A DNA stretch of 55,184 nt from Sandaracinaceae bacterium (GTDB taxonomy: Bacteria; Myxococcota_A; Polyangia; Polyangiales; Sandaracinaceae), in NCBI GenBank assembly GCA_019637095.1, contig JAHBWG010000064.1, forward strand, positions 1-55,184, given 5' to 3'. A model generated the notes under the pieces. It had not been told where the DNA came from. It made no database searches and saw only the letters and a program-made list of their open reading frames with translations. The position numbers were made by a program, and so were the translations under genes. Below, piece by piece: positions 11,147 through 26,842 of this stretch (its first letter is position 1; each line of letters opens with the position of its first letter).

Positions 11147-12195
11147 CCTTCGTGAAGCCCGCAGTCCACCACAAGCGGCTCGAGAAGAACGCGCTCGGGC
11201 TCACCGTGCGCGACTACGAGGGCGCGCTCTCGACGCTCTGCGCCGGGTGCGGCCACGACTCGGTCACCGCCGCGATCATCCAGGCGTTCTGGCACCTGTC
11301 GATCGCCCCGCACCGCGTCGTGAAGCTCTCGGGCATCGGCTGCTCCTCCAAGACGCCGACGTACTTCCTTCGCGAGGCCCACGGGTTCAACTCCGTGCAC
11401 GGCCGGATGCCGTCGGTGGCGACGGGCGCGAACGCGGCCAACCGCGAGCTCCTCTACGTCGGCATCAGCGGCGACGGCGACTCCCTCTCGATCGGCCTCG
11501 GGCAGTTCTGCCACGCGATCCGCCGCAACGTGAACCTCACCTACATCCTCGAGAACAACGGGGTGTACGGGCTCACGAAGGGCCAGTTCTCCGCGTCGGC
11601 CGACGTGGGCAGCAAGGCCAAGCGCGGCGAGGAGAACCGGCAGCAGCCGATCGACCCGGTGATGCTCGCGCTCACGCTCGGCGCGACGTTCGTCGCGCGC
11701 TCGTTCTCCGGCGACAAGGCGCAGCTCGTGCCGATCCTCGAGGCCGCGTTCAAGCACCAGGGCTTCGCGCTCGTCGACGTGATCTCGCCGTGCGTGACCT
11801 TCAACGACCACGTGGGCTCGACCAAGAGCTACATGTACACGCGCGAGCACTACCGCGAGCTGGTCGAGGCGGACCTCGTGCCGCTGCGCAAGCCGATCGA
11901 GGCGGACGGGGCGCGCGCCGCCACGACGCAGGTCCGCATGCACGACGGCAGCCTCGTGACGCTCCGCGGGACTGAGCCGGGCTACGACCCGACGGACCGG
12001 GACCGCGTGTACATGCGCCTGCGCGAGATCGCGAAGGCGGGCGAGATCGCCACGGGGCTGCTCTACGTGGAGGAGGGGGGCGCCGACATGCACGAGATGA
12101 GCGCGACGACCGAGACGCCGCTCGTCGAGGTGCCGTTCGAGGAGCTCTGCCCCGGCGCGGCCGCCCTCGACAAGCTCATGAGCCAGTTCCGTTGA
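11143..12195 (+). CDS. 2-oxoacid:acceptor oxidoreductase beta subunit (TPP-binding)
   Basis: A 350-residue protein with the TPP-binding pattern GDGDS at 110-114 and NN at 138-139 (ENNGVYGLTKGQ). The beta-subunit cysteines for a 4Fe-4S cluster are in CAGCGH (33-38) and IGCSSK (Cys67). It catalyses CoA-dependent oxidative decarboxylation together with the gamma-alpha subunit. The start ATG overlaps the previous stop, so translation is coupled. Residues 130-150 resemble the KorB side more than the PorB side, so 2-oxoglutarate is my first guess, held loosely. The operon appears to end here, in front of the five-hairpin element. Confidence 0.93.
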   Translation: MTFVKPAVHHKRLEKNALGLTVRDYEGALSTLCAGCGHDSVTAAIIQAFWHLSIAPHRVVKLSGIGCSSKTPTYFLREAHGFNSVHGRMPSVATGANAANRELLYVGISGDGDSLSIGLGQFCHAIRRNVNLTYILENNGVYGLTKGQFSASADVGSKAKRGEENRQQPIDPVMLALTLGATFVARSFSGDKAQLVPILEAAFKHQGFALVDVISPCVTFNDHVGSTKSYMYTREHYRELVEADLVPLRKPIEADGARAATTQVRMHDGSLVTLRGTEPGYDPTDRDRVYMRLREIAKAGEIATGLLYVEEGGADMHEMSATTETPLVEVPFEELCPGAAALDKLMSQFR

Positions 12196-12453: not shown

Positions 12454-12963
12454 TCAGGCGCGCGGTGCGCGTCGCCGGGCGCGCGCGAGCAGGGTGAAGA
12501 GGACGAGCGCGAGCGGCGCGGTGGGCGCGGCGCGACCGGCGCCGGCGCGGCATCCCGGCATCGGCTCGCCCGGGCGGCCCGTCGAGAGCGAGCGCGCGCC
12601 GCCGCCCGAGACGCACCGCGGTGCACGGCGGCACGTCCCGCCGCGCGGACAGGCGCCGTCGACGCACGGGCCGCGCGCGACGTCGCGGTAGGTGGCGCGC
12701 GGCGCGTCGCCCGCGAGGCGGCTGTGCGGCGTGTAGCGCTCGCGCGCGATGCAGAGCGCGATCTCCTCACAGCGCTGCCCGCGCTCGCAGCCGCGGCCTC
12801 CCTCACAGCTCGTCGGCGCGCAGTAGGGCCCGGCGTGCGAGGTCTGGCCGACCGAGCCGCGCGGGCAGTCGGCGGGCGGCGGCGGGACGCGATCCGCCGA
12901 GGCGCGCGCGTGCGCGAGCGAGACGAGGGCGGCGACGGCGAGGCCGGAGGCGAGCGCGCGCAT
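12454..12963 (-). CDS. Small secreted Cys-rich protein with Myxo-CTERM-like tail
   Basis: A 169-residue protein with an N-terminal signal peptide (ending near ARASA at 23), a mature part containing about a dozen cysteines (CEGGRGCERGQRCEE), and a C-terminal layout of Gly-Cys, a hydrophobic helix (APLALVLFTLLA) and an Arg-rich end. That tail matches the plan of myxobacterial sorting signals in which a Cys is processed and lipidated. The start is an ATG matching a normal signal peptide. The protein may be surface-attached and disulfide-bonded. No enzymatic motif was seen and the function is unknown. Confidence 0.65.
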   Translation of the reverse strand: MRALASGLAVAALVSLAHARASADRVPPPPADCPRGSVGQTSHAGPYCAPTSCEGGRGCERGQRCEEIALCIARERYTPHSRLAGDAPRATYRDVARGPCVDGACPRGGTCRRAPRCVSGGGARSLSTGRPGEPMPGCRAGAGRAAPTAPLALVLFTLLARARRRAPRA

Positions 12964-13003
12964 GCAGAGAGCCTACTCCGTTCCGCGGGCGCCGGGCCTC
13001 ACG

Positions 13004-14821
13004 TCAGGGAGCGCCCACCGTCAGATCGATCACGAGGTAGCCGCCGGGGTCGGCGGCGACGTCGCCGACGTGGAGGGGCACGCCGAGATCCGGCAGCGCG
13101 ATCGCGACGCCGGAGAGCAGCGGCGAGAGCTGCGAGACGATGAGCCCGTCGACGAGCTCGGCGAGCGTGTCGGCGTTGCGCGGCGCGAGGCCGGTCACCG
13201 CGGTGTCGACGATCCACGTGCGCGAGCTGCTCGCCGCCGCGACGAGCACCGGCGCGAGCGCGCCCTCCGGCGTCGCCTCGAGCGAGAGCCCGAGGCGCAC
13301 GTGCGAGGCGAGCTCGAAGAGCGTCCCCGCGCTCGTGCCGAGCGAGAGCCGCAGGTCGCCGAGCTCGATGAAGACGTCGGCGCCGGTCGCGGACTCCTCG
13401 GGCGTCGCGGCGCGCACCAGCGGCGCCATCTGCGCGTCGACGCCGACGACGAGCGGCGCGCCGCGCGGGATGCGTCCGTCCGCGAGCATCTGCCGCAGCG
13501 GCGGCACGATCCCCGAGAGCGTGTCGATGGTGAAGCCGAGCCCCTCGCCGCCACCCCCGAGGGCGGAGACGTCGGGGATCGCGAACGCGCCGCCGTTCCA
13601 CACGCTGAAGAGGATCTGCGAGACGAGCGCCGGATCGAGGAGCAGGCCGCCGCCCGTCGCGGGCGGCGTGGTCGGCAGGTGCGGCGCGCCGGGGGCCTCG
13701 ATCCCGAGCCCGCCCGGGCCGCGCGCGCGCGTGCCGAGGCGCGCGAGCAGCTGGCCCTCGGGCGAGGGGCCCAGGCCCGTGAGGCAGAGCCCGAGCTCCA
13801 CCGACGTGCCGAGGAAGTCGAGCGTCGTCGTCTCGTCGAGCACGCGCAGCTCCGCGAGCATCGGCCCGACCAGCGGCCCGACCTGTTCCATCAGCTGGCG
13901 CTGGATCATCGACTTCACCGGCCCCTCGATGATCTCGCCGACCACCTCGCCCGCGAGCGAGAGCAAGAGCGAGCCGGACAGGCGCAGGTCGAGATCGAAC
14001 GACGTGATGCGCAGGTTCACGTCGCTCGCGGTGAAGCCCTGGATGCACTGGCCGGGCGCGGGCTCGATGGGCTCGAGGATCATCGACAGCTCCACCGTCG
14101 TCTCGTCGGCCTCGCTCGAGTCGCGCACGGTGATCTCCGTGCCGAGCGCGTTGCAGCGGCCTCCGAAGCCGACGGTGATGTCGGGCACACGCACGACCGC
14201 GAGCAACCTTCCGTCCGCCGTGGGCGCGAGGCGCAGGCTCGGGCGCCCGGTGCTCGCGCGGTTCACGAAGAGCTGGCAGGTGCTGTTGTTCATCAGCGCC
14301 GTGCCCGGCGTGATGAACGAGCCGAGGTCGAGCCCACCCAGGAGCGCGCCGGCGCTCTCGCCGAGCGCGGCGAGCATCGCCTCGTCGGCGGCGAGGACCG
14401 CGGTCTCTCCCAGGAGCTGCCACTCCGGCGTGTACGCCGCGCTGAGCACGGAGCGGTGCCCGTTCACGACGCGCCCTTGCCGGTCGTAGGCGCGCGCCTC
14501 GACGAGCGAGTAGCCCGGCGCGACGGTGGCCGGCGCCGTGAAGCTCCCGCCGGAGTCGACGGGGACGCGCGTCGGCGCCGCGCCTGGACCGATCTCGGCC
14601 CGGTCGACCCCGGCCGAGGCCACCACGTGTCCCCGGATCGTCGCGGTGGTCGCGCCGACCGGCAGGTACGTGTCGCTGCGGCTCGTGTCGATCGACAGGC
14701 TCCAGGCCGCCTCCGGGTCTGGCGCGCCGGGGTCGCCCGGCGCGGGCGCGCCCCCCGTCCCGGTGAGCATCCCGAGGCAACCGCAGAGGCAGAGGGAGGG
14801 CAAGGCGAGGATGGCGCGCAT
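13004..14821 (-). CDS. Large lipoprotein with N-terminal Ig-like domain, possible lipid-binding fold
   Basis: A 605-residue protein starting at the ATG of MRAILALPSL; a more distal start adds seven polar residues before the signal. Its signal ends in a Cys-rich lipobox-like stretch (CLCGCLG). Residues 35-125 resemble a bacterial Ig-like domain (TATIRGHVVASAGVD, SYSLVEARAYDRQG-type strands). The remaining 450 residues are beta-rich with amphipathic helices such as SMIQRQLMEQVGPLVGPML and LVSQILFSVWNGG, a pattern reminiscent of BPI/LBP-like tubular lipid carriers. That fold guess is weak and needs structure prediction. It lies on the minus strand between the Cys-rich protein and the LIC_10091-like gene. 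Confidence 0.75.
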   Translation of the reverse strand: MRAILALPSLCLCGCLGMLTGTGGAPAPGDPGAPDPEAAWSLSIDTSRSDTYLPVGATTATIRGHVVASAGVDRAEIGPGAAPTRVPVDSGGSFTAPATVAPGYSLVEARAYDRQGRVVNGHRSVLSAAYTPEWQLLGETAVLAADEAMLAALGESAGALLGGLDLGSFITPGTALMNNSTCQLFVNRASTGRPSLRLAPTADGRLLAVVRVPDITVGFGGRCNALGTEITVRDSSEADETTVELSMILEPIEPAPGQCIQGFTASDVNLRITSFDLDLRLSGSLLLSLAGEVVGEIIEGPVKSMIQRQLMEQVGPLVGPMLAELRVLDETTTLDFLGTSVELGLCLTGLGPSPEGQLLARLGTRARGPGGLGIEAPGAPHLPTTPPATGGGLLLDPALVSQILFSVWNGGAFAIPDVSALGGGGEGLGFTIDTLSGIVPPLRQMLADGRIPRGAPLVVGVDAQMAPLVRAATPEESATGADVFIELGDLRLSLGTSAGTLFELASHVRLGLSLEATPEGALAPVLVAAASSSRTWIVDTAVTGLAPRNADTLAELVDGLIVSQLSPLLSGVAIALPDLGVPLHVGDVAADPGGYLVIDLTVGAP

Positions 14822-14942
14822 GGCGAAGTGGTGCCTCTGCAACCCGCGATCCTGCGGAGAACTCCGCGGTCCGCCTCGCCTGCTGGGGATTCCGTGCCCG
14901 AGCGCCCCCGCTCGCCGCTGGGGTGTCTCGTCCCCGGAGCAA

Positions 14943-15048
14943 GGGGACGATCCTCGTCATTTCGTCATTCTCCGCCGGTCGCCGCCGCGAGGCGGGCACC
15001 GGGGACGATCCTCGTCATTTCGTCATTCTCCGCCGGTCGCCGCCGCGA
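14943..15048. repeat. Perfect 48-bp direct repeat, two copies at 58-bp spacing
   Basis: Bases 14943-14990 and 15001-15048 are identical, separated by ten bases. The second copy contains the last nine codons and stop of the neighbouring minus-strand gene, so the first copy is a duplicate of that gene's end placed beyond its stop. The identity suggests a recent slip or unequal exchange. Otherwise the gap between the two minus-strand genes (14822-15022) shows no gene. Confidence 0.9.
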
Positions 15049-16663
15049 CGCGCGCGAGCCGCTCGAACAGCACCACCAGCGCGTCGGCGGCGGCGTCCGA
15101 CGCGGCGGCCTCGCGCCCGATCGCGTGCATCGCCCGCCCGATCGCGGCCTCGCGCTCCGGCCACCCGGGGCGCGCGCGCGCGGTCGGCACCGGGCGGATC
15201 AAGCGGGTGGCGTGGCGGCACGCGCGCGTCGCGGCGAGCGCCTCGGGGCTCGCGCCGCGCGCGGGGCGGGCGCGCGCGGGGCAGCGCTCGAGCAGCCGCT
15301 CTCGCATCCGGTAGGCGGCGTAGCGATCCGCGGCGGCGGGCGCGTCGCGCAGGGAGGCGGCGATCGCGTCTTCGCCCGCGCGCGCGTAGAGCGCGGGGAG
15401 CACCTCGCGCGCGACTCCGTCGAGCAACATGGCGTGCAGGTTGTCTTCGGGCTCGGGGACGCGGGGGAGAGCGCCGGGCGCGGGCTCGCCGCTCAGCTCG
15501 ACCGCGCGCCCGGTGCGCGGGTCGGGCGGCAGCACGACGTCGCGCAGGTGCGCGACCTCCGTCCCGGCGAGCTCGACGCGCTCGAGCCGCGCGCGCCGCG
15601 CCGCGTCGAGCGCGGGCGAGACGGCGCGCCGCGTGACCGCGAGCAGGCGCGAGGGACCGCGCGGGCCGCGCAGCGCGGGCGGCGGCGGCGGCGCGTGCTC
15701 GAGCCACCAGCGCCGGCTCGAGGGCGTGGCGTACGCGCGCGTCCGTGCGTCGAGCACGCTCGATCCGTCGGGTCGGTGCGCGACCTCCGAGCGCAACAAG
15801 TCGTGCACGATCCAGCTCGAGTCGGCGTAGCCGTGGTCGCGGATGCGCGAGAGCAGGTCGCCGAGCGGCTGCACGTCGTAGTGCCACATCGAGTCGGCGG
15901 GGGCGCGCGGGAGCCGGCGGTCGCGGAGCGTGCGCAGCACCACCGCGTCGGGCGGGTGGGGCAGCGCCGCGAGGTTGTCGACGAACCGCGGCTCGTAGGC
16001 GAAGTACTCCTCCGCGTTCGACAGGTAGATCACCGAGAAGCGCGCGCCCTCGGCGCGGGCGGCGGCGGCGACCGCGCGCAGCGTGGACGGGCCGCGCAGA
16101 TCGGCGACGCGCGCGACGATCCGCCCGCGCTGCGCGAGGCGGTGGACGTGCGCGTACCAGTCCGCGCGTCCGAGCCAGCTCTGAGTGCTCCGCTGCGCGC
16201 GGACGGAGCGCGCGAGGAGCGGTCGGTGGACGCGGAGCTCGCGGACGGCGCTGCGCGCGTGCCAGTCGTCGCCGAGCGCGCGCGCGACGGCCGCGGCGGT
16301 GCGCGCCTCCTCCTCGGGGGCGAGGCGCGCCTCGAGGCACGCCGCGTCCGGGCAGCCCGCGACCAGCACGGCGAGCGCGCGGTGAAGGCGCGTGACGACC
16401 GGGTCGTAGTCGACGAGCACGACGAGCTCGGCGCCCTGCACGGCGGCGAGCGTGAGGCTCTGGTCGCTGCCGACGCCGAGGTAGGCGCCGCCGCGCCCGG
16501 CGATCGAGGGGAAGAACAGCGCGTGCGCGCGCTCGTTCGTCTCTGCGTAGTGCTCGGAGGTCTGCTCGACCGCTTCGTCGGGGACGGCGTCCCACCGCCC
16601 TTGGGCGGACGCCGACGAAGCCGCCGACGCGAGGAGGAGGACCGCGAAGCTCTGCGCGCGCAT
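15023..16663 (-). CDS. Secreted protein with methyltransferase-like N-terminal motif (LIC_10091-like)
   Basis: A 546-residue protein with a clear signal peptide (ending near ASSASAQ). Soon after comes GGAYLGVGSDQSLTLAAV followed by ELVVLVDYDP, a Gly-rich loop plus acidic strand end resembling a SAM-binding Rossmann fold. Further on, VIYLSNAEEYF and FVDNLAALP resemble a family I associate with Leptospira LIC_10091; I am not certain of that assignment. An upstream TTG start would add four residues. Cleavage of the signal would put a SAM-type fold outside the cytoplasm, which is odd. The final codons lie in the 48-bp repeat. Confidence 0.6.
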   Translation of the reverse strand: MRAQSFAVLLLASAASSASAQGRWDAVPDEAVEQTSEHYAETNERAHALFFPSIAGRGGAYLGVGSDQSLTLAAVQGAELVVLVDYDPVVTRLHRALAVLVAGCPDAACLEARLAPEEEARTAAAVARALGDDWHARSAVRELRVHRPLLARSVRAQRSTQSWLGRADWYAHVHRLAQRGRIVARVADLRGPSTLRAVAAAARAEGARFSVIYLSNAEEYFAYEPRFVDNLAALPHPPDAVVLRTLRDRRLPRAPADSMWHYDVQPLGDLLSRIRDHGYADSSWIVHDLLRSEVAHRPDGSSVLDARTRAYATPSSRRWWLEHAPPPPPALRGPRGPSRLLAVTRRAVSPALDAARRARLERVELAGTEVAHLRDVVLPPDPRTGRAVELSGEPAPGALPRVPEPEDNLHAMLLDGVAREVLPALYARAGEDAIAASLRDAPAAADRYAAYRMRERLLERCPARARPARGASPEALAATRACRHATRLIRPVPTARARPGWPEREAAIGRAMHAIGREAAASDAAADALVVLFERLARVAAATGGE

Positions 16664-16732
16664 GGCCCAGGACAACGACGTGCGCTCGCCGCGCCATTCC
16701 CGCGTCGATCCATCGTGCTAGACCTCGCCGCC

Positions 16733-17572
16733 TTGCCCGAGCTGCCCGAGGCCGAGCACACGCGGCGGATCTTCGAGCGCGTCGCGGTCGGTCGCCGGGT
16801 CGCGCGAGCCGACGTCGCCGAGGACCCGATCGTGCTCGACGGGCGCCCCGCGGCGTGGGTCGCGGCGCGCCTGACGGGCCGGACCGTGCGCGAGGCCCAC
16901 CGGCGCGGCAAGTACCTCTGGCTCGTGCTCGACGAGGGCCCCCACCCGATCGTCCACCTCGGCATGACGGGCACGCTCCGGTCCCCCGGGGACGAGCCGC
17001 TGCGGCTCGCGTCGAGCCCGCGCGCGGTCGATCGATCGTGGCCGCCGCGCTTCACCAAGCTCCTGCTCGCGCTCGACGACGGCGGCGCGCTCGCGTTCAC
17101 CAACGCCCGTCGCCTCGGGCGGATCCTGTTTCGCGACGATCCCGCGGGTGAGCCCCCGATCGCGCGCCTCGGGTTCGACCCGCTCACCGACATGCCGTCG
17201 CGCGCGCGCTTCGCCGCGCTCCTCTCGCGCCGGCCGCGCGCGGTCCTCAAGGCGCTGCTGCTCGACCAGGGCTTCGCGGCGGGCGTCGGCAACTGGATCG
17301 CCGACGAGGTGCTCCACCGCGCGGCGCTCGATCCGCGGCGGCGGGCCGGCTCGCTCGCCGACGCCGAGGTCGCGCGCCTCCACGAGGCGCTCCGCCACGT
17401 CGTCGTCACGGCGGTGCGCGCGGGCGCGTCGAAGGACGCGCTGCCCGCGGACTGGCTCTTCCATCGCCGCTGGGGCAAGGACCCGGACGCGCGCACCGCG
17501 GACGGGGAGCGCGTCGAGCACCTCGTGATCGGCGGGCGCACGACGGCGTGGGTGCCCTCGCGCCAGCGCTGA
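16733..17572 (+). CDS. Fpg/Nei-family DNA glycosylase lacking zinc-finger cysteines
   Basis: A 279-residue base-excision repair enzyme. The start is a TTG, chosen because the next residues must be Pro-Glu for catalysis: this start gives MPELPEAE, the family's invariant N-terminus. Also present are Lys60 in RRGKYLW, the TNARRLGR loop, and the helix-two-turn-helix GVGNWIADEVLHRAALDP. The C-terminal hairpin keeps its DNA-contacting arginine (IGGRTT, about 269) but has no cysteines at all where bacterial Fpg has a four-Cys zinc finger. It therefore belongs to the zincless subset known from plants, NEIL1 and some bacteria. It should excise oxidised purines or pyrimidines; which is unclear. Confidence 0.9.
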   Translation: MPELPEAEHTRRIFERVAVGRRVARADVAEDPIVLDGRPAAWVAARLTGRTVREAHRRGKYLWLVLDEGPHPIVHLGMTGTLRSPGDEPLRLASSPRAVDRSWPPRFTKLLLALDDGGALAFTNARRLGRILFRDDPAGEPPIARLGFDPLTDMPSRARFAALLSRRPRAVLKALLLDQGFAAGVGNWIADEVLHRAALDPRRRAGSLADAEVARLHEALRHVVVTAVRAGASKDALPADWLFHRRWGKDPDARTADGERVEHLVIGGRTTAWVPSRQR

Positions 17573-17691: not shown

Positions 17692-18621
17692 TCAGCCAAC
17701 CCGGCGCGCGAGCTCGGGCGTCACGCGCCGCACGTCCTCGGCGCGCTTGAGCAGCACGCCGAGCGTCGTGCGCACGAGCTCCGGCTCGAGCGCGCGCGCG
17801 CCGAGCAAGACGAGGGCGCGCGCCCAGTCGATCGTCTCCGCGATGCTCGGCGCCTTCTGCAGCTCGCTCGCCCGGACCGACTGCACGAACGCGACGAGCT
17901 GCCGCGCGAGCGTCTCGCTCGCCTCCGGCACCGCGCGCCGCACGATCGCGAGCTCACGCGCGGCGTCCGGGAAGCTCAGCGTGAGGTGCAGGCACCGCCG
18001 GCGCAGCGCCTCGGTCAGCTCGCGCGTCGCGTTGCTCGTCAGGACGACGTACGGCATCGAGCGCGCCTCGAGCGTGCCGAGCTCGGGCACGCTCACCGCG
18101 AAGTCGCTCAGCACCTCGAGCAGCATCGCCTCGAGCTCGGGATCGGCGCGGTCCACCTCGTCGATCAAGAGCACCACCGGCGACTCGCTGCGCAGCGCGC
18201 GCAGCAGCGGCCGCTCGATCAGGAACCGCTCGTGGAAGAACGCGGCCTCGTGCGCGGCGACGCGATCGACCGCCTCGCTCAGGTCCTTGGCGCCCGCGAG
18301 CGTCGCGCCGAGGGCGTCGCGCAGGAGCTGCGTGTAGAGCAGCTGCTTGCCGTACTCCCACTCGTAGAGCGCCTTCTGCTCGTCGAGCCCCTCGTAGCAC
18401 TGCAAGCGGAGCAGCGCGGTCCCCCGCGCGCGCGCGACCGCCTTGGCGAGCTCGGTCTTGCCGACGCCCGGCGGCCCCTCGACGAGGAGCGGCCGGCCGA
18501 GCGCCCCCGCGAGCCAGCTCACCACGACGGCGTCGCGATCCGCGAGGTAGCCCTCGGCCTCGAGCGCGGCGGCCATCGCCTCCGGCGTGGGGAAGGGCGG
18601 CTCGATCGGCGGCGCGGCCAT
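17692..18621 (-). CDS. MoxR-type AAA+ ATPase
   Basis: A 309-residue ATPase with Walker A GPPGVGKTELAKAVA, the loop YEGLDEQKALYEWEYGKQ typical of one MoxR subgroup, Walker B VLLIDEVDRADPE, sensor 1 TSNATREL, and arginine-rich ALRRRCLHL. MoxR proteins act as chaperones, usually with a von Willebrand factor A partner that is encoded alongside; none is present here. Instead it is the last gene of an operon with two ATP-grasp ligases, whose stop lies 31 bases upstream. A GTG 18 bases upstream is an alternative start. A role in remodelling or assembling the ligase/methyltransferase products is an inference from position. Confidence 0.88.
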   Translation of the reverse strand: MAAPPIEPPFPTPEAMAAALEAEGYLADRDAVVVSWLAGALGRPLLVEGPPGVGKTELAKAVARARGTALLRLQCYEGLDEQKALYEWEYGKQLLYTQLLRDALGATLAGAKDLSEAVDRVAAHEAAFFHERFLIERPLLRALRSESPVVLLIDEVDRADPELEAMLLEVLSDFAVSVPELGTLEARSMPYVVLTSNATRELTEALRRRCLHLTLSFPDAARELAIVRRAVPEASETLARQLVAFVQSVRASELQKAPSIAETIDWARALVLLGARALEPELVRTTLGVLLKRAEDVRRVTPELARRVG

Positions 18622-18652
18622 CGCGCCCTGGCGTAGCACGCGCGGCGCGCGA

Positions 18653-19768
18653 TCACCCGGCGCCGAGCGCGACGGCGCGCGCCGGCTCGTCGAACGGGGG
18701 CGTGGTCGCGCCGTGCCGGCGCCGCCAGCCGTGCGCGAGGACGGCGCCGATCAGCTCCGCCATCGCGCACCCGGACTCGGCGAGGATCGCGCCCGCGGTC
18801 GACGTGTCGTCCGAGGAGAGCCCGCAATTCGCGTTGACCTCGAGCACGCGCGCCGCGCCGGCGCCGCACACGCGCAGATCGACGCGTGCGTACGCGTGCC
18901 CGCCGACCGCGCGGTACGCGGCCCTCGCGAGCGCGGCGAGCGGCGCGGCGCGCTCCGCCTCGACGGCCGCGTAGCGGTAGTACGGCTCGCCGGGCGGCGG
19001 CGGCGGATCCTCGTCGTATTCCTCGCAGTAGCGCTCGAACGTCAGGTAGCGCTCGAGCGGCGGCAGGCCCGGGTGGAACACGCGCTCGCACGGCGCGAGC
19101 ACGCGCACGCCGTCCGGTGCGCGCGGATCGTCGAAGAGCAGTACGGTGTACTCCGGGCCGGGCAGGAACGGCTCCGCGAAGATCGCGCCCGGCGCGAACC
19201 GGCACCCGTGCATGCCGCCGAAGAGCCGCATGGCCTGCGCGACGCCGCTCGCCCGGTCGCGGATCACGGAGCGCACGGTGATCCCCGCGCTCCCGAACGA
19301 GACGTCGGGCTTGAGGAAGAACGGCAAGCCCAGGGCGCGCTCGGCGCGGGCGACGTCGCGCGCGGGCTCGGCGATCTCCACCCACGGTGCGGTCGCGACG
19401 CCCGCGGCGACGAAGCGCCGCTTCATCGCGAGCTTGGAGGTCGAGAGCGCGTAGAAGGCCGCGTCCGCGCCGGTGTGAGCGACGCCGGCCGCGGCGAGCG
19501 CGCGCACCACCGAGAGGCCGGGGTAGCCGTTCACGTCGTCGCCGTCGCAGAGGTTCAGCGCGATCGCGGGGGCCTCGCGCGCGACGCGCCGCACGGCCTG
19601 CTCGACGCCGTCGATCGTCACCGAGACCCACTCCCAGCGCGCGCCGAGCGCAGCCATCCACGAGGCGACGTCGCGGCGCAGCTCGGGCGTGTCGTAGTAG
19701 GGGCTGACGAGCGCCCCGCCCTCGCGGGCGAACGGGACGAGCACGAACACGACCGGCGGCGCCCTCAC
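18653..19768 (-). CDS. ATP-grasp ligase (D-Ala-D-Ala ligase-like), paralogue 1
   Basis: A 371-residue protein with the D-alanine ligase-like ATP-grasp plan. It has NLCDGDDVNGYPGLSV at 72-87 (substrate-side motif), SKLAMKRRFVAAGV as the hinge helix, PFFLKPDVSFGSAGI for ATP contact, YARVDLR, and the Mg-binding LEVNANCGLSSDD at 309-321. It should form an amide between a carboxylate and an amine, with an acyl phosphate intermediate. The ancestral D-Ala-D-Ala role is unlikely given the altered substrate motif and the neighbours. It starts at GTG, 67 bases after the ATP-grasp-SET gene. It is closely similar in motifs to the ligase encoded on the opposite arm of the cluster. Confidence 0.88.
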   Translation of the reverse strand: MRAPPVVFVLVPFAREGGALVSPYYDTPELRRDVASWMAALGARWEWVSVTIDGVEQAVRRVAREAPAIALNLCDGDDVNGYPGLSVVRALAAAGVAHTGADAAFYALSTSKLAMKRRFVAAGVATAPWVEIAEPARDVARAERALGLPFFLKPDVSFGSAGITVRSVIRDRASGVAQAMRLFGGMHGCRFAPGAIFAEPFLPGPEYTVLLFDDPRAPDGVRVLAPCERVFHPGLPPLERYLTFERYCEEYDEDPPPPPGEPYYRYAAVEAERAAPLAALARAAYRAVGGHAYARVDLRVCGAGAARVLEVNANCGLSSDDTSTAGAILAESGCAMAELIGAVLAHGWRRRHGATTPPFDEPARAVALGAG

Positions 19769-19835
19769 GGCGTCCGTCCCCGCGCCTTCGCCGGGGCGCG
19801 CCCGCGCTCTGTCGCGTGCTGCGTCGCGCGCCGCC

Positions 19836-21278
19836 TCACGCGCCCTCGCGCCGCGCGCGCTCGCGGCGGTCGACCGAGTTGCCGGTCGCGCCCGCGATCG
19901 TGCCGCGGCACCGCGCCGCGCCGCACCGGCACGCGAAGGGCTCCATCCCCTCGTCGCAGAACGAGGCGTAGTCGAGCGTGAGCTCCTCCCCCGGCGCGAG
20001 ATCGCGGAGCGCGACGACGTCGAGGCCGTCGTAGGCGGTGCTCGGATCGCACGAGTGGTTCTGCGGCGCCCACGCGGCGGGGTCGGCGTCCCAGAGGATC
20101 CGCACCTCGTCGCTCACCGGGTACGCGTAGCGGCGGTAGGTGAGCGCGTCCTCGGCCGACCAGCGCGTCTCGACGTGCCGTCGCGTCGCGAGCCGCTGCG
20201 CGCGCTCCTCGCCTCGGAACACGACCTCGCCCCGGAGGATGGCGCGCTTGGCCCGGATGCCGAGGCCGGCGCGCGGGCTGCGGAAGACCTCGTAGAGCGG
20301 CTGGCGCGCGCGGTGCCGCGCGATCCCCTCGGCGACCACGTGCCGTAGGAACGCGGCTTGCCCCATGCCGTCGTGCATCAGGATGTAGTCGGCCGTCCCG
20401 TAGGCGCCCTCGCCGTAGAAGATCGAGCACGCGAAGTTGACGTCGAGCAGGCGCGGCGTACCGTCGTGGCCGACGCGGAAGTCCATGCGCGCGTACCCCA
20501 CGCCGCCGAACGCGCGGAACACGGCGCGCGCGGCGTCGCGCAGCGCGCGGTCGAGCGCCGGGTCGTCGCAAGGGACGTTGCGCTCGGGGAGGTAGCGCGT
20601 GGTCTTGAGCTCGTAGGTCTTGAACGGCTCGTCGGGCGAGAAGACGAACTCGACCGGGCGGAGCGCGAGCACCTCGCCGCCCGGCTCCGCGGGCGCCGCG
20701 ACGAGCACCGACAGCTCGCGTCCGTCGACGTACTCGTCGATGATCACCTCGTCGAACTCGTCCATCACGCGGCGCGCGACGCGCCGGAGCGCGGCGGCGT
20801 CCTCGCAGCGCGAGCTCGCGTCGATCCCGAGGCTGTCCCCGCCGCGGTCGGGCTTCACGAACAGCGGGAAGCGCAGCGCGCGGGCTGCCTCCTCGACGTC
20901 CGCGTCGGTCCGCGCGAGCACGTGCTCCGGCACCGCGACGTCGGCGTAGAACGCGACGCGCTTCATGAGGTGCTTGGGCGGGTCGTAGAGCGCCGCGCTC
21001 GGCCCGGTGTACGGCAGCTCGAGCGCCTCGAGCGAGTGGATCACGTCGATCGAGGGGACGTCCCAGTCGAGGTAGCCCTCGCAGAGGTTGACGTAGACGT
21101 CGAAGCCCTCGCGCCGGAGCGCGCGGAGCTGCCGGTAGACGGTCGCCTTGTGGAGCGCGACGTGGGTCACGTCGGCCTCGGGCCAGAGGCGAGAGAGATC
21201 GCGCGGCGGGTCGTAGCTCCGGTAGTCGATGGTCGAGTCTGCCCACGCGGGGGACAGGACGCAGACGCGAGGCGGCAT
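19836..21278 (-). CDS. ATP-grasp ligase fused to SET-domain methyltransferase
   Basis: A 480-residue two-domain protein. Residues 1-315 are an ATP-grasp with VNLCEGYLDWDVPSID at 63-78, LFVKPDRGGDSLGI at 139-152, YARMDFRV and the Mg-binding LDVNFACS at 278-285. Residues 328-465 are a SET domain: NHSCDPS at 407-413 (SAM/substrate pocket), GEELTLDYASF at 430-440, and a post-SET cysteine cluster CRCGAARCRG at 450-459. SET enzymes methylate lysine or related amines. One polypeptide therefore could couple amide-bond formation with N-methylation of the product or of a carrier protein. It leads an operon with a second ATP-grasp and a MoxR ATPase. Confidence 0.9.
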   Translation of the reverse strand: MPPRVCVLSPAWADSTIDYRSYDPPRDLSRLWPEADVTHVALHKATVYRQLRALRREGFDVYVNLCEGYLDWDVPSIDVIHSLEALELPYTGPSAALYDPPKHLMKRVAFYADVAVPEHVLARTDADVEEAARALRFPLFVKPDRGGDSLGIDASSRCEDAAALRRVARRVMDEFDEVIIDEYVDGRELSVLVAAPAEPGGEVLALRPVEFVFSPDEPFKTYELKTTRYLPERNVPCDDPALDRALRDAARAVFRAFGGVGYARMDFRVGHDGTPRLLDVNFACSIFYGEGAYGTADYILMHDGMGQAAFLRHVVAEGIARHRARQPLYEVFRSPRAGLGIRAKRAILRGEVVFRGEERAQRLATRRHVETRWSAEDALTYRRYAYPVSDEVRILWDADPAAWAPQNHSCDPSTAYDGLDVVALRDLAPGEELTLDYASFCDEGMEPFACRCGAARCRGTIAGATGNSVDRRERARREGA

Positions 21279-21386
21279 GCGCGCCGCAGCATAGCGGCCG
21301 CGCTCGAGGTCGGGGCCAACGAACCGCGCGACCGCGCTCCGTCGATCCGCTCTGCCGCCGCGCGATCTAGAGTGCCGCGCCTCACC

Positions 21387-21392
21387 AGGAGG
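21387..21392 (+). promoter_or_regulatory. Strong Shine-Dalgarno for the SET gene
   Basis: AGGAGG lies seven bases before a GTG codon and decides that GTG as the start. The 121-base gap between the divergent arms must hold promoters for both operons, but I see no clear -35/-10 pair in it. Confidence 0.7.
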
Positions 21393-21399
21393 AGCGCGC

Positions 21400-21906
21400 G
21401 TGCTCGACCGACCCCGCCCCGTCCCGTCCGACCCTCACCGGCTCCCCCAGGTCGCGCTCGGCGCGTGCGCTCACGGGGCGGCCGTCGTCGCCGCCGCGCC
21501 GTTCGCTCCCGGCGAGGCGGTGCTCTCGTTCGAGGGGCCGGCCTGCGCCGCGCCGAGCCGCTTCACCGTGCAGGTCGGCGCCGATCTCCACGTCGCGCCC
21601 GACGACGCGCTCTGGGCCTACGTCAACCACTCCTGTGATCCGAGCTGCGTGATCGCGTTCGAGCCCTCGGGCGCCGGGCCCGCGCGGCTCGTCGCCCGGC
21701 GCGCGATCGCCCGCGGCGAGCAGATCACCTTCAACTACCTGACGACGGAGTGGGAGCTGGCCGCGCCCTTCGAGTGCACGTGCGGCGCGCCCGCGTGCGC
21801 CGGGACCATCCGAGGCTTCGCCCACCTCGATCGCGCGGCGCGCGCCGCGCTCGCCTCGTGGCTCGCGCCGCACCTCGCGTCGCGCCTCGACGACGGAGCG
21901 CGATGA
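21400..21906 (+). CDS. Free-standing SET-domain protein (lysine methyltransferase-like)
   Basis: A 168-residue protein that is essentially one SET domain. It has NHSCDPSC at 76-83, ARRAIARGEQITFNYLTTEW at about 99-118 with the active-site Tyr113, and a post-SET cluster C126, C128, C133. It starts at GTG after an AGGAGG ribosome-binding site. The SAM-dependent transfer should be to a lysine or free amine; the target is unknown. The domain resembles the C-terminal half of the divergent ATP-grasp-SET fusion. Its stop overlaps the next gene's ATG, so the SET protein and the third ATP-grasp are coupled, echoing as two proteins what the other arm encodes as a fusion. Confidence 0.88.
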   Translation: MLDRPRPVPSDPHRLPQVALGACAHGAAVVAAAPFAPGEAVLSFEGPACAAPSRFTVQVGADLHVAPDDALWAYVNHSCDPSCVIAFEPSGAGPARLVARRAIARGEQITFNYLTTEWELAAPFECTCGAPACAGTIRGFAHLDRAARAALASWLAPHLASRLDDGAR

Positions 21907-22919
21907 GCGGCGCGGGGCGCGAGGTCCACGTCCTGGTCCCCTGCGACGCCGAGGGGCGGAGCCCGGAGTTCGACACGCCCGCGCACCGCGCCGAGCTCGC
22001 CTCGTGGTTCGCGCCGCTCGGGCTGCGCTGGCGGTGGGTGCCCGTGCGGATCGGCGAGGCGGACGCGATCGCGGCCGCGCTCGCCGGACGCGACGACGCC
22101 GTCGCCTTCAACCTCTGCGACGGAGACGAGCTCGACGGCTACCCCGGCCTCTCGGTCGTCGAGGCGCTCGAGCGCCGCGGCGTGCCGTTCACCGGCGCGG
22201 ACGCCGCGTTCTACCGGACGAGCAGCTCGAAGCTCGCGATGAAGCGCGCCTTCGCGCGCGCGGGCGTCGCGACGCCGCCGTTCGCCGAACCGATCGGCGA
22301 GCTCGACGCGCTCGTCGCCTCCGTCGGGCTGCCGTGCCTCGTCAAGCTCGACACCGGCGCGGCGGGCCTCGGCCTCGGGCGTGCTTCGGTCGCGACCGCC
22401 CGCGCCGAGCTCGAGGCCGCGCTGGCTCTCCCGCGCGCCGGCGCGCGCGGCGCGTTCGTCGAGGCGTTCGCGCCGGGCGACGAGCTCACGGTCCTGGTCG
22501 TCGGTGACGCCCGCGCGGCCGACGCGCTCGCAGCGCTGACCTCGTACCCGGCCGTCGCGATGGACTTCGCGCCGGGCACGCCCGCCACCGAGCGCATCCT
22601 CTTCCACGGGCACCGCCTCGAGCCCTCGCCCCACGCGCCCGGCGTCCCGCACTGCCGCTACCGGCTCGCCGCCCCCGACGCGAGCCGCGCCGCGGAGGCG
22701 CTCGCCCGGCGCGCGTTCGTCGCGACCGCCGGTCGCGGCTACGCGCGCGTCGATCTGCGCGACGGCCCGCGCGGCCTCGAGGTCCTCGAGGTCAATGCGA
22801 ATTGCGCGCTGTCGATCGACGAGCCGACCATCGGCCTCGCGCTCGCGGCGCGCGGCGAGGCGATGAGCGATCTCGCGCGCGCCATCCTGCGCGTCGCGCT
22901 CGACGGCGGGTCGGCCTGA
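21903..22919 (+). CDS. ATP-grasp ligase (D-Ala-D-Ala ligase-like), paralogue 2
   Basis: A 338-residue ligase with the same ordered signatures as paralogue 1: NLCDGDELDGYPGLSV, PFTGADAAFYRTSSSKLAMK, YARVDLRDG and the Mg-binding LEVNANCALSIDE. Its start ATG overlaps the stop of the SET gene (ATGA). The central ATP-contact stretch is PCLVKLDTGAAGLGL, shorter than in paralogue 1. The two paralogues probably arose by duplication and then specialised for different substrates (inference). It ends 38 bases before a convergent lipoprotein gene. No precursor peptide gene is visible next to it. Confidence 0.88.
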   Translation: MSGAGREVHVLVPCDAEGRSPEFDTPAHRAELASWFAPLGLRWRWVPVRIGEADAIAAALAGRDDAVAFNLCDGDELDGYPGLSVVEALERRGVPFTGADAAFYRTSSSKLAMKRAFARAGVATPPFAEPIGELDALVASVGLPCLVKLDTGAAGLGLGRASVATARAELEAALALPRAGARGAFVEAFAPGDELTVLVVGDARAADALAALTSYPAVAMDFAPGTPATERILFHGHRLEPSPHAPGVPHCRYRLAAPDASRAAEALARRAFVATAGRGYARVDLRDGPRGLEVLEVNANCALSIDEPTIGLALAARGEAMSDLARAILRVALDGGSA

Positions 22920-22957: not shown

Positions 22958-24184
22958 CTACGGCAGGGCCGCCTCGATCGCGTCGAGCCCGACGCCGAGC
23001 TGCGCGCGCGCGACCGCGTCGAGGACCGCGCGCGGTCCGACGAGGTGGATCGTCCGATGGACGTGCTCGAGCGCCTCGCCCGGCGCGAGGGCGGCGGCAG
23101 GCGACGACGACTCGAGCTCGTAGAACGGCCCGAGCGGCGCGGCGCCGGGCGCGAGGGGGCCGTCGTTGTAGCTGTTCACCACGTCGCCGCCGTACGGCGT
23201 GTCCGTCTCCGCCCACAGGCTGTTCACGTAGCCGTGCGGCGCCGCCTCGGGCAGCGTGTACGTCACGAGCGTCAGCGCGCCGGCCTCGGGGTCGTAGCTC
23301 CCCATCACCGGCCGCGCGCGAGCGAACGACACGCCGATCTTCCCGCGCTCGCCGCCGTCGCCGCGGAAGAAGATCACCGCGCGCTCCGCGTCGACCGAGA
23401 GGCGCGAGCTCGGCACGCGCCCGAAGTAGTCCGCGTTCACGATCGGGCCGAGCTCGGCCTCGGGGCCCGCGCGGAACGGGACGACGATCGTCGTCGCGGG
23501 CGAGGGCCGGTACATGCTCAGGATCCAGATCGACACGAGGCCGCTCGCCGCGGTCCACGCCGCGGTCCCGGCGTTGCGGATGCGGTTGACCGACTCGTAC
23601 GCCACCGCGTGCGCGCCGGGCGCCTCGACCCACGGCGCGATCATCCGCACGGTGCGCTCGATCGCGACGACGAGCTCGGTCCCCGCGCGGTTGACGAAGC
23701 GGGCCTCGTGCGCGAACGCGACCGACGCCGCCTCACGCGCCGTGACCTCCCACGCCGCGAGGTCGATCGCCGGCGGCACCTGCCAGTGCGCGAGCTCGAA
23801 CGGCGCGCCGGGCGCGAAGTAGAGCGCGAAGGCGCCGCCCTCCGGCCCGAGCCAGAGGCGATCCTCGCCGCCGAACACGTTCATGTGTGGCGTCGGCACG
23901 CCGCTCTCGATGCGCGCGCGGTGGATCCAGCCGAAGCTCGCGCCCCCCTCGGTCACCGCGCTCGTCATCACGCGCCCCTGGTAGCCGGGCGCGACCGCCA
24001 CGCGGGCGTCCTCGCGCTCGAGCACCACGAGATCGGGCGCGTGGCGGCGGAGGAAGGCCACGTCGTCCGCGAACGTCGGCGAAGTCGTCATCGAGGGCCT
24101 CTCGGGGTGCGCCGCGCGATCCGGCGACGACGCGCCGGCGCACGCGGTGAGGAAGACCGCGACGAGCGCGTGATCCGATCGCAT
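22958..24184 (-). CDS. Lipoprotein, DUF6786-like
   Basis: A 408-residue protein. The chosen ATG gives MRSDHALVAVFLTACAG, a short lipoprotein signal with Cys15; the frame is open for 61 further codons upstream but these look like non-coding sequence. The mature part is beta-rich with TSAVTEGGASFGWIHR, ESVNRIRNAGTAAW and SIWILSMYRPSPATTIVVPF, which I associate with DUF6786, possibly of a sugar-mutarotase-like fold. That assignment is moderate at best. It could act on carbohydrates at the outer membrane. It converges on the ATP-grasp gene and is divergent from the next secreted protein. Confidence 0.65.
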   Translation of the reverse strand: MRSDHALVAVFLTACAGASSPDRAAHPERPSMTTSPTFADDVAFLRRHAPDLVVLEREDARVAVAPGYQGRVMTSAVTEGGASFGWIHRARIESGVPTPHMNVFGGEDRLWLGPEGGAFALYFAPGAPFELAHWQVPPAIDLAAWEVTAREAASVAFAHEARFVNRAGTELVVAIERTVRMIAPWVEAPGAHAVAYESVNRIRNAGTAAWTAASGLVSIWILSMYRPSPATTIVVPFRAGPEAELGPIVNADYFGRVPSSRLSVDAERAVIFFRGDGGERGKIGVSFARARPVMGSYDPEAGALTLVTYTLPEAAPHGYVNSLWAETDTPYGGDVVNSYNDGPLAPGAAPLGPFYELESSSPAAALAPGEALEHVHRTIHLVGPRAVLDAVARAQLGVGLDAIEAALP

Positions 24185-24332
24185 CCGAGGCAGCCTGCGT
24201 CGGGCGGCGGCGCGCTGTCTACCAGGACATCGCGCGCCGTGATCCCGCGCGCTCCCGCGGCGAACGGCACGAGGCGGCACACCCGGCCATCGGCGGGCGC
24301 CGGTGGTGCGGCCCTTGCCTAGGCGTCGCTGC

Positions 24333-25226
24333 ATGACGAGGCCTCTCGCGATGGTTGCGGTCTTCACCCTCTTGCTCGCGCCGGTCGTCGCGAGCGCCAG
24401 CGAGCCGTGTCAGCGCGGCTGCGCGTGCTCGCAGTACGCGCCGCGCGTGACGATGTATCCCAACGGCTCCGTGCTCGTGCCGACCAACGCGCGGGTGCTC
24501 GTCCCGACGCTGGACGGCATCGCGCCGCGCGTCGCGCTGTTCGCCGACGGAGCGCCCGACGTCTCGCTGCCGGTCCGCGTCGAGCCGGTCGCCGACGCGG
24601 ACGCCGTGTTCGTCACGCCCGCCGCGGCGCTCGCGCCGAGCACGCGGTTCCGGCTCGAAGGGCGCTGGGAGCACGTCGCGGGGGGAGCGCCGTTCAGGCT
24701 CGACTTCCTCACGGCGGAGGGAGCGGATCGCGAGGCTCCGTCGGTCCTGAGCGCCACCGCGGCGCCAGTGGACGACGGGGAGCTCTGCGACGCCTTCGTC
24801 GGCACGCGGGTCACGATCGAGACCGACGACGGGCTGGGCGAGATCTCGCTCTTGCGGGTGGCCGTCGAGCTCGAGGGCGGCGACGTGCACGTGCTCTACG
24901 GCGTGCCGTTCGCCTCGGCGTACCGCACGCTCGTGCTCGGCTCGGGAGGCGAGATCTGCGACGCGGACAGCCGCGAGAGGCCGACGCTGCCCGCGGTGGC
25001 GGCGGGGACCATCGCGCGCATCACGGTCACCGCGATCGACGCGGCGGGCAACGCGAGCGCGCCGTTCGTGCTCGAGGACGTCGCGCTGACGGCGTCGGCC
25101 GCGGGGGACTCGCGCTTCTACGGCGCGTGTTGGGGCTGCAACGCGCCCGGCGTGCCGGGGGAGGGCGGCGCGCTCGCCGCGCTCGCGCTGGCGCTGTTCG
25201 TGGTCGCGCGCGCGCGCCGTCGCTGA
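24333..25226 (+). CDS. Secreted Ig-like protein with Myxo-CTERM-like anchor
   Basis: A 297-residue protein with a signal peptide ending near VVASA, a Cys-containing start of the mature chain (CQRGCACSQ), then about 100 residues like a SbsA/Ig-like domain (ALAPSTRFRLEGRW). A second beta-rich domain follows, and the tail has GCN, GEGGALAALALALFVVA and RARRR. The tail matches the Cys / hydrophobic helix / Arg pattern of myxobacterial C-terminal sorting. An in-frame start 30 bases upstream adds an Arg-rich stretch. It opens a same-strand run of six more genes. Function unknown, presumably cell-surface. Confidence 0.7.
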   Translation: MTRPLAMVAVFTLLLAPVVASASEPCQRGCACSQYAPRVTMYPNGSVLVPTNARVLVPTLDGIAPRVALFADGAPDVSLPVRVEPVADADAVFVTPAAALAPSTRFRLEGRWEHVAGGAPFRLDFLTAEGADREAPSVLSATAAPVDDGELCDAFVGTRVTIETDDGLGEISLLRVAVELEGGDVHVLYGVPFASAYRTLVLGSGGEICDADSRERPTLPAVAAGTIARITVTAIDAAGNASAPFVLEDVALTASAAGDSRFYGACWGCNAPGVPGEGGALAALALALFVVARARRR

Positions 25227-25264
25227 GCGTGCCCGCCACCTCCGCGTGGGTGTACGGTTCGCTC

Positions 25265-26842
25265 ATGCGCTTCGCCGCCGTCTTCGCCTGCATGCTCGCC
25301 ACCGGTTGCCCGGCCAGTCCGTCCGAAGTGGACGCTGGCCCCTCGCCGATGGACGCCGGAGGCGGCGTCGACACGGGGATGCCGCCGGGCGAGGACGCGG
25401 GGACGCCGCCGCTGGACACGGGGACGCCGCCGCCGGACTGCGGCGAGGTCGGCCAAGCGTGCTGCGCGTCGGGCGCGCGGTGCGTGACGGGGGCCTCCTG
25501 CGGCGACGACGGAGCGTGCTGCGCCAACCCGGGCGGCGGCGCGGCGTGCGGCGATCCGAGCGACTGCTGTGGAGAGAACGACTGCGTCGGCGGCAAGTGC
25601 TGCGCGCTCCAGATGGGCTCGTGCCGCTCGTCGGCGGACTGCTGCACGGACCTCCTGTGCGCCGACGGCCTCTGCCTGCGGCCGTTCGAGGAGTGCGGCC
25701 GCGAGGGGCAAGCGTGCTGCGCGGGCGACGCGTGCCGCAGCGGGCTCGAGTGCGCGGGCGGACGGTGCGAGCCGTGCGGCGCCGACGGGCAGCGGTGCTG
25801 TCTGCCGCCGAGCGAGTGTACGGGCGCCCTGAGCTGCCGCGAAGGGCGCTGCGGCGCGCCGGACCCGACGTGCGGCGGCGACGGCCAGCCCTGCTGCGAG
25901 GGCACGCGGTGCGAGGGCACCCTCACGTGCGCGAGCGGGCGGTGCGCGCCGCCCGCGACGGCGTGCGCGTACCTCGACTGCGCGGAGTGCACGCGCCACT
26001 ACCCGTGCGGTTGGTGCGACGGCGTCGGCTGTCGCGAGGGCACCTCGAGCGGGCCGAGCGGCGCGAGCTGCGCGAGCAGCTGGGCGTGGCTCGGGAGCCA
26101 GTGCCCGGGCGCGCCCGATCCGTGCGCGTCCTCGACCGACTGCGCGTCGTGCACCGCGCGCGCCGGCTGCGGCTACTGCGGCGACGGCGCGGGCGCGTGC
26201 CGCAGCGGGACGGGCGCCGGCCCGAGCGCGGGCACGTGCGGCGACTGGAGCTGGGTCTCCTCGGAGTGTGGCGGCGCCGGCACCTGCGCGCGCCACACGA
26301 CCTGCGACGCGTGCACGGGGGAGTACCCGTGCGGCTTCTGCGGGGCGACGGGCGCGTGCACGGAGGGCAGCGCGAGCGGCCCCGACAGCGGGAGCTGTCC
26401 GAGCTGGGCGTGGCTGCGCTCCGAGTGCGTCGCGCCCGATCCGTGCGCCGCCGAGACCGCGTGTGGGGCGTGCACCGCGCGCAGCGGCTGCGGCTGGTGC
26501 GAGTCGGATCGCACGTGCCGCGGCGGCACCGCGGGCGGGCCCACCACCGGCTCCTGCGGGGACTGGGACTTCGGCGCGTCGAGCTGTACGTGCTCGATGG
26601 TGCAAGGCTCGTGTACGACCGCGAGCGACTGCTGCGGCGGGCTGAGCTGCCGGCAGGGCGTGACGTTCGGCGTGCGCTGCTGCGCGGAGGCGACGCAGCC
26701 CTGCGCGGTCGGCGGCGACTGCTGCGGCTACATGGACTGCAACGCCACCACGAGGCAGTGCACGTGCCGCACCGCGGGCCGTGGTTGCCTCGAGAACGCC
26801 GACTGCTGCTCCCGCGTCTGCTCGGCGGGTCGCTGCACTTGA
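25265..26842 (+). CDS. Cys-rich lipoprotein with four PSI-like repeats
   Basis: A 525-residue lipoprotein (lipobox LATGC) with an Asp-Ala-Gly/Pro-rich linker. A first zone has repeated CC knots (GQACCASG, ADCCTDLLC, GQRCCLPP). Four repeats of the form Cys, 4-5 residues, Cys-x2-Cys, 5 residues, CG(W/Y/F)C follow from about residue 237 to 430. These resemble plexin-semaphorin-integrin (PSI) modules, for example CAECTRHYPCGWC and CGACTARSGCGWC. A last zone returns to CC motifs. All cysteines suggest a rigid, disulfide-bonded outer-membrane adhesin. The closely similar repeats indicate internal duplication. No enzyme motif seen. Confidence 0.8.
   Translation: MRFAAVFACMLATGCPASPSEVDAGPSPMDAGGGVDTGMPPGEDAGTPPLDTGTPPPDCGEVGQACCASGARCVTGASCGDDGACCANPGGGAACGDPSDCCGENDCVGGKCCALQMGSCRSSADCCTDLLCADGLCLRPFEECGREGQACCAGDACRSGLECAGGRCEPCGADGQRCCLPPSECTGALSCREGRCGAPDPTCGGDGQPCCEGTRCEGTLTCASGRCAPPATACAYLDCAECTRHYPCGWCDGVGCREGTSSGPSGASCASSWAWLGSQCPGAPDPCASSTDCASCTARAGCGYCGDGAGACRSGTGAGPSAGTCGDWSWVSSECGGAGTCARHTTCDACTGEYPCGFCGATGACTEGSASGPDSGSCPSWAWLRSECVAPDPCAAETACGACTARSGCGWCESDRTCRGGTAGGPTTGSCGDWDFGASSCTCSMVQGSCTTASDCCGGLSCRQGVTFGVRCCAEATQPCAVGGDCCGYMDCNATTRQCTCRTAGRGCLENADCCSRVCSAGRCT

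Follow-up and report, generated by a model that had tools for sequence, protein, structure and literature searches.

We analysed a stretch of 55,184 nucleotides from a Sandaracinaceae bacterium (contig JAHBWG010000064.1 of assembly GCA_019637095.1), hereafter the window, and focused on a divergent gene cluster at positions 17692-22919 that brings ATP-grasp ligases together with SET-domain proteins. The window has a G+C content of ~76% and is contig 159 of a 9.25-Mb assembly (96.4% complete). A first-pass annotation had described a five-gene cluster of two ATP-grasp ligases, an ATP-grasp-SET fusion, a lone SET protein and a MoxR ATPase, organized around a 121-bp gap, and all of these elements were recovered among the open reading frames (ORFs) and by Pfam searches:

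17692-18621, minus strand: MoxR/MadB-like AAA+ ATPase (NF047784, 340 bits against a cut-off of 475)
18653-19768, minus strand: AG1, stand-alone Ddl-like ATP-grasp ligase of 371 aa (Pfam PF07478, E = 2.3e-9)
19836-21278, minus strand: AGSET, fusion of a Ddl-like ATP-grasp part (~1-325) and a SET part (~338-460) (PF07478, E = 1.3e-14; PF00856, E = 1.6e-8)
21279-21399, no strand: divergent intergenic gap of 121 bp between AGSET and the lone SET gene
21400-21906, plus strand: lone SET protein of 168 aa, BurB-like by sequence (Pfam SET, E = 2e-9)
21903-22919, plus strand: AG2, second stand-alone Ddl-like ATP-grasp ligase, 338 aa (PF07478, E = 9e-6)

AGSET, AG1 and the MoxR gene run leftward from the gap, while the lone SET gene and AG2 run rightward, and both promoters presumably lie inside it. 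The start of AG2 overlaps the stop of the lone SET gene by 4 bp, and these two genes form one operon. At the domain level, Pfam detected Dala_Dala_lig_C in three ligases of the window and the SET domain in two of its proteins.

The predicted structure of AGSET (pLDDT 87.7) matched Ddl enzymes over residues 1-325, with a Z score of 30.1 over 287 residues that applies to AGSET only. Alignments revealed invariant ATP/Mg residues in both ligase families, namely K142, R264, D266 and N281 in AGSET and R295, D297, E310 and N312 (AG1 numbering) in AG1/AG2; AG2 keeps the positions that are invariant across the AG1 family, and the tree places it among AG1 proteins. The acceptor/oxyanion motif of Ddl, NTxPGMT, is replaced by NxxCS in AGSET and by NxxC-x-x-S in AG1/AG2. 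Moreover, Pfam found no match to the Ddl N-terminal domain (PF01820) in the window ligases, and their scores against the NCBIfam D-Ala-D-Ala ligase families (NF002378, TIGR01205) were 64, 70 and 41 bits, short of a cut-off near 243 (64 against 243 for AG1). A profile of AG1 reached BacD at 3e-7, a much weaker match than that to Ddl. The first-pass annotation had named ordinary D-Ala-D-Ala ligases as the case that would speak against it; with scores far below the cut-offs and the acceptor motif replaced, the ligase parts of AG1, AG2 and AGSET keep the Ddl fold and the ATP/Mg residues but, by sequence, do not belong to that ordinary type.

The lone SET family is nearer by sequence to BurB than to histone methyltransferases. 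Its profile matched BurB with E = 5e-28 (100.6 bits, 137 positions) as against 1e-13 (54 bits) for KMT2A, and the three best Foldseek matches of the lone SET protein were all BurB. BurB is an S-methyltransferase that acts on free methionine, and T73, V130 and M132 line its substrate site (PMC12542666). The lone SET and BurB have the T/S-x-Q and STE motifs and the SET tyrosine in common, and the two motifs lie at or beside those substrate-site residues, with V130 and M132 following the STE motif. The NHxC motif, the SET tyrosine and a CxCx4C zinc site are invariant in both the lone and the fused SET types. A third SET protein of the window's genome (G000:C154:144469-144837; L161) is encoded away from the cassette and is without the BurB-like STE motif.

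We searched for relatives of AGSET in one genome per species and then by sampling within phyla. AGSET was found at 48-65% identity in 18 further genomes, nearly all over ~460-480 aa (one was truncated by a contig end), with loci in Pseudomonadota, Gemmatimonadota, Bacteroidota and Verrucomicrobiota. It was present in 36 of the 346 sampled Gemmatimonadota genomes (~10%) and in 19 of 379 from Myxococcota (5%), where the weaker ~7 match mainly the ligase domain. Locus L014 (contig CALQGY020000092.1, 16,891 bp) carries a 'Candidatus Kuenenia' label that we left out of the phylum count; we placed it with Gemmatimonadota because the same contig occurs in genome G677 of the Gemmatimonadota search and its cassette groups there, and it is likely a mislabelled bin. 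The first-pass annotation had staked its candidate system on conserved synteny, and the AG1-AGSET neighbourhood, often with SET genes, is indeed conserved across phyla. Given the fusion in 18 other genomes and the AG1/AGSET pairing in ~40 loci, the association of these genes goes beyond chance.

The relatives fall into two clades. In clade I (48-65% identical), which includes the window, AGSET is accompanied by AG1, which in most cases immediately precedes it in the same orientation, and this adjacency spans Gemmatimonadota, Pseudomonadota, Bacteroidota and Verrucomicrobiota. The window and locus L001 depart from the usual order in having AG1 downstream of AGSET, and in L005 AG1 is not adjacent but encoded elsewhere in the genome, on a different contig. 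Genes for a lone SET protein and for an exporter are frequent additions to the pair in relatives. In clade II (36-44% identical; mainly Myxococcota, with some Gemmatimonadota), AGSET stands alone or, in four Myxococcota loci, is extended to an in-frame ATP-grasp-SET-SET protein, whose second SET resembles the lone SET and keeps its BurB-like Y-P-[SA]-T-E motif. AG1 was not found in four of the clade II genomes tested, while the fifth genome tested (G198) has two AG1 genes beside AGSET. Apparent AG1-AGSET gene fusions in L139 and L144 were rejected, as the AG1 matches lie in a different frame from the long ORF and Pfam found only one ligase plus SET.

In both the AG1 and AGSET trees, the window groups with L001, a betaproteobacterial metagenome-assembled genome (local support 0.82, 0.99), and not with G198 of its own order. 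These two loci also have the divergent SET/AGSET layout in common, and AGSET was absent from five genomes of the same family listed in the Myxococcota search. Because both trees join the window to L001 and the five same-family genomes are without AGSET, we conclude that horizontal transfer carried the core genes as a unit. AGSET and AG1 are thus a conserved, horizontally moving pair present in five phyla. A search for plasmid carriage yielded no match to AGSET in PLSDB.

Exporters of unrelated families lie next to the cassettes. These include B-type ABC exporters (L001, L009, L013 and L018), transmembrane-only ABC proteins (PF13748; L002, L004, L006, L010, L011, L014, L015, L144 and others), MATE proteins (L131, L133 and L138) and MFS_3 proteins (L150, and L146 and L147, which have VTT/DedA proteins too). 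By tblastn, the exporter families reached 0.19 genes/kb in the cassette or within 1.8 kb of it, compared with 0.010/kb further out, a count that includes VTT/DedA proteins, which are not certainly exporters. In total, 22 of 41 loci (a few of the 41 being clade II) had an exporter inside the cassette or no more than 1.8 kb away. That exporters of unrelated types recur is a stronger point than the enrichment ratio. Peptidases (M14, M28, M20, M15 and S51) are also found near many cassettes, in no consistent arrangement; in L136, a D-Ala-D-Ala dipeptidase gene (M15; 10754-11839) directly precedes AG1-AGSET, and L137 has a gene of the same cluster at that place.

Together, these features suggest that the four genes at 18653-22919 probably form a biosynthetic cassette, independent of nonribosomal peptide synthetases (NRPSs), for a small methylated amino-acid conjugate such as a di- or tripeptide, which would usually be secreted. 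In the pathway that we infer, the BurB-like SET enzyme would methylate a free amino acid, possibly methionine to give S-methylmethionine, or an amine. AG1 or AG2 would then use ATP to turn an amino-acid carboxylate into an acyl-phosphate and join it to an amine, after which AGSET may attach a further unit and methylate the growing product through its fused SET domain. The product would leave the cell, possibly in the window's organism too, and in many relatives via an exporter whose gene adjoins the cassette. The amino acids involved and the choice between N- and S-methylation are likewise part of this proposed scheme. The first-pass annotation had allowed for either a ligated, methylated product or the modification of a carrier protein. 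The former fits better and the latter less well, as unrelated exporters recur beside the genes and the lone SET groups with BurB.

Several observations weigh against this cassette model. The majority of clade II genomes carry AGSET without AG1 or an exporter, and in at least 15 loci the query families gave no exporter up to 1.8 kb away. The window is among those without one: it holds the AG1, AGSET and lone SET members of the AG1-AGSET(-SET-exporter) cassette, and tblastn detected no exporter of the query families anywhere in it. The enrichment ratio is also inflated, because the query families were picked from genes near the cassette. As for the SET domains, structural alignment gives BurB a Z score of 13.8 and ASH1L 13.3, no separation from histone methyltransferases, and the fused SET of AGSET scores 62 bits with BurB over 58 positions and 55 bits with KMT2 over 130. 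Finally, the lone SET family keeps the Asn of the NH motif where BurB has LH, and its substrate may therefore differ from that of BurB.

Among the alternatives, we consider it unlikely that the cassette modifies proteins, with the AG ligases adding amino acids to a protein and the SET enzymes methylating one of its lysines, by analogy with the tubulin ligase-like protein TTLL12. Protein lysine methylation is the activity of most SET enzymes, the fused SET is nearly as close to KMT2 as to BurB, the clade II fusion occurs without an exporter, and TTLL12 likewise combines SET-like and ATP-grasp (TTL) domains (PMC3520985). However, exporters recur beside the cassette, the ATP-grasp part is closest to Ddl, a small-molecule ligase, and the lone SET is closest to an enzyme of free amino acids; no conserved target gene was present in the neighbourhoods examined. 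The Ddl fold raises another alternative, in which the AG proteins would act as divergent D-Ala-D-Ala or D-Ala-D-X ligases and change cell-wall stems, to which the dipeptidase gene adjoining AG1-AGSET in L136 and its counterpart in L137 would be pertinent. No canonical ddl above the family cut-off was found in the window's genome; of the 19 genomes in the search of relatives (the window's included), 17 pass. Relatives without AGSET possess canonical Ddl, and a DNA-level search of the window's genome with the ddl region of a relative gave essentially no match except for a repeated kinase-like segment; that the block around ddl is missing as well, by this DNA-level search only, is consistent with a gap in the 96% complete assembly. 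A gap in the assembly seems a likelier cause than replacement of ddl by the AG enzymes, though a genuine loss of the gene may also be at work. With scores of 41-70 bits, no PF01820, an altered acceptor motif and no role for SET or exporters, cell-wall modification is very unlikely.

A ribosomally synthesized and post-translationally modified peptide (RiPP), crosslinked by the AG proteins in the manner of graspetides and methylated by the SET enzymes, appears more improbable still. Graspetide clusters combine an ATP-grasp enzyme with an exporter, but the ligases here are Ddl-type, and the suggestion that the 121-bp gap might encode a precursor peptide was not supported, as we found no conserved small ORF in it. 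L001 shares the divergent layout, and the sequence of its gap is without clear conservation. In the relatives examined, adjoining cassette genes overlap or almost touch, and a precursor would have little space unless it were encoded at a distance; the empty gap and these tight operons together disfavour a RiPP. The least probable alternative is the full five-gene system of the first-pass annotation, with MoxR as its chaperone. The MoxR gene does follow AG1 at a distance of 31 bp, on the minus strand like AG1. However, 59 of the 145 genomes of the order carry an orthologue (47-79% identity), most of them without AGSET in the Myxococcota search, and at the loci inspected the neighbours of these orthologues vary (for example FeoB, an M74 peptidase, a DUF4388 protein, radical SAM or VWA genes). 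None of the orthologue loci inspected adjoins a cassette, the other cassette loci gave no MoxR match, and G198 has MoxR and the cassette on different contigs. Since the orthologues are widespread in the order and away from the cassette where inspected, we judged MoxR to be a bystander, probably a neighbouring resident gene outside the cassette, and its proposed membership was not borne out. The annotation was right that the window has no VWA partner, the only match there being a 36-aa chance one; a credible VWA_CoxE match was absent from the window and present in L093, near a MoxR orthologue.

The cluster is flanked by genes for a DUF7790 protein (15023-16675, minus strand; E = 5e-63) and a DUF6786 protein (22958-24367, minus strand; E = 6e-131). 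A long ORF (12962-17572, plus strand), convergent with the MoxR gene, has a C-terminal part (16718-17572) that by eye resembles formamidopyrimidine-DNA glycosylase (Fpg/MutM). At 24407-26842 (plus strand) lies the gene for a cysteine-rich protein with CGxxGQxCC-type repeats, possibly secreted, and in G198 a Stig1-like repeat protein is encoded immediately upstream of the cassette (L048:7178-9019).

Beyond the cassette itself, we tentatively propose that such genes represent a new class of natural-product pathway that spreads horizontally. In it, SET domains, which are familiar chiefly from chromatin, would work on free amino acids or small peptides while physically fused to a peptide-building ligase, and the product would be a methylated di- or tripeptide, possibly with a sulfonium group, that leaves through interchangeable pumps. 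If so, this would be a compact and widespread route of two to four genes that needs neither an NRPS nor a precursor peptide, and the small-molecule chemistry of SET enzymes, which otherwise act on protein lysine, would reach further than BurB. The ATP-grasp-SET fusion would then offer a genome-mining handle for an undescribed metabolite family. The first-pass annotation knew of no characterized pathway with this combination, and we likewise found no description of a bacterial ligase-SET combination in the open-access literature searched.

Compared with known systems, the best solved relatives of the lone SET are the BurB/MSMT SET-domain methionine S-methyltransferases of the dimethylsulfoniopropionate (DMSP) and malleicyprol pathways (100.6 bits). 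The lone SET, a possible S-methyltransferase, differs from BurB in keeping NH in place of LH and in lying beside, and fused to, ATP-grasp ligases. The only related architecture found in the literature searched is that of the eukaryotic TTLL12, which carries SET and ATP-grasp on one polypeptide, but in reversed domain order and with a TTL-type rather than a Ddl-type ligase; TTLL12 is reported to have lost critical residues and to show no methyltransferase activity (PMC3520985). The AG ligases resemble Ddl in fold (Z score of 30 for AGSET) and in the conserved Lys, Arg, Asp and Glu-Asn of the ATP/Mg site, but fall far under its cut-offs, have a different N-terminal region and carry NxxC in place of NTxPGMT. 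Pathways of BacD-type L-amino-acid ligases, in which to our knowledge SET methyltransferases do not occur, would work alike, forming peptide bonds with ATP-grasp enzymes without an NRPS and with an exporter nearby.

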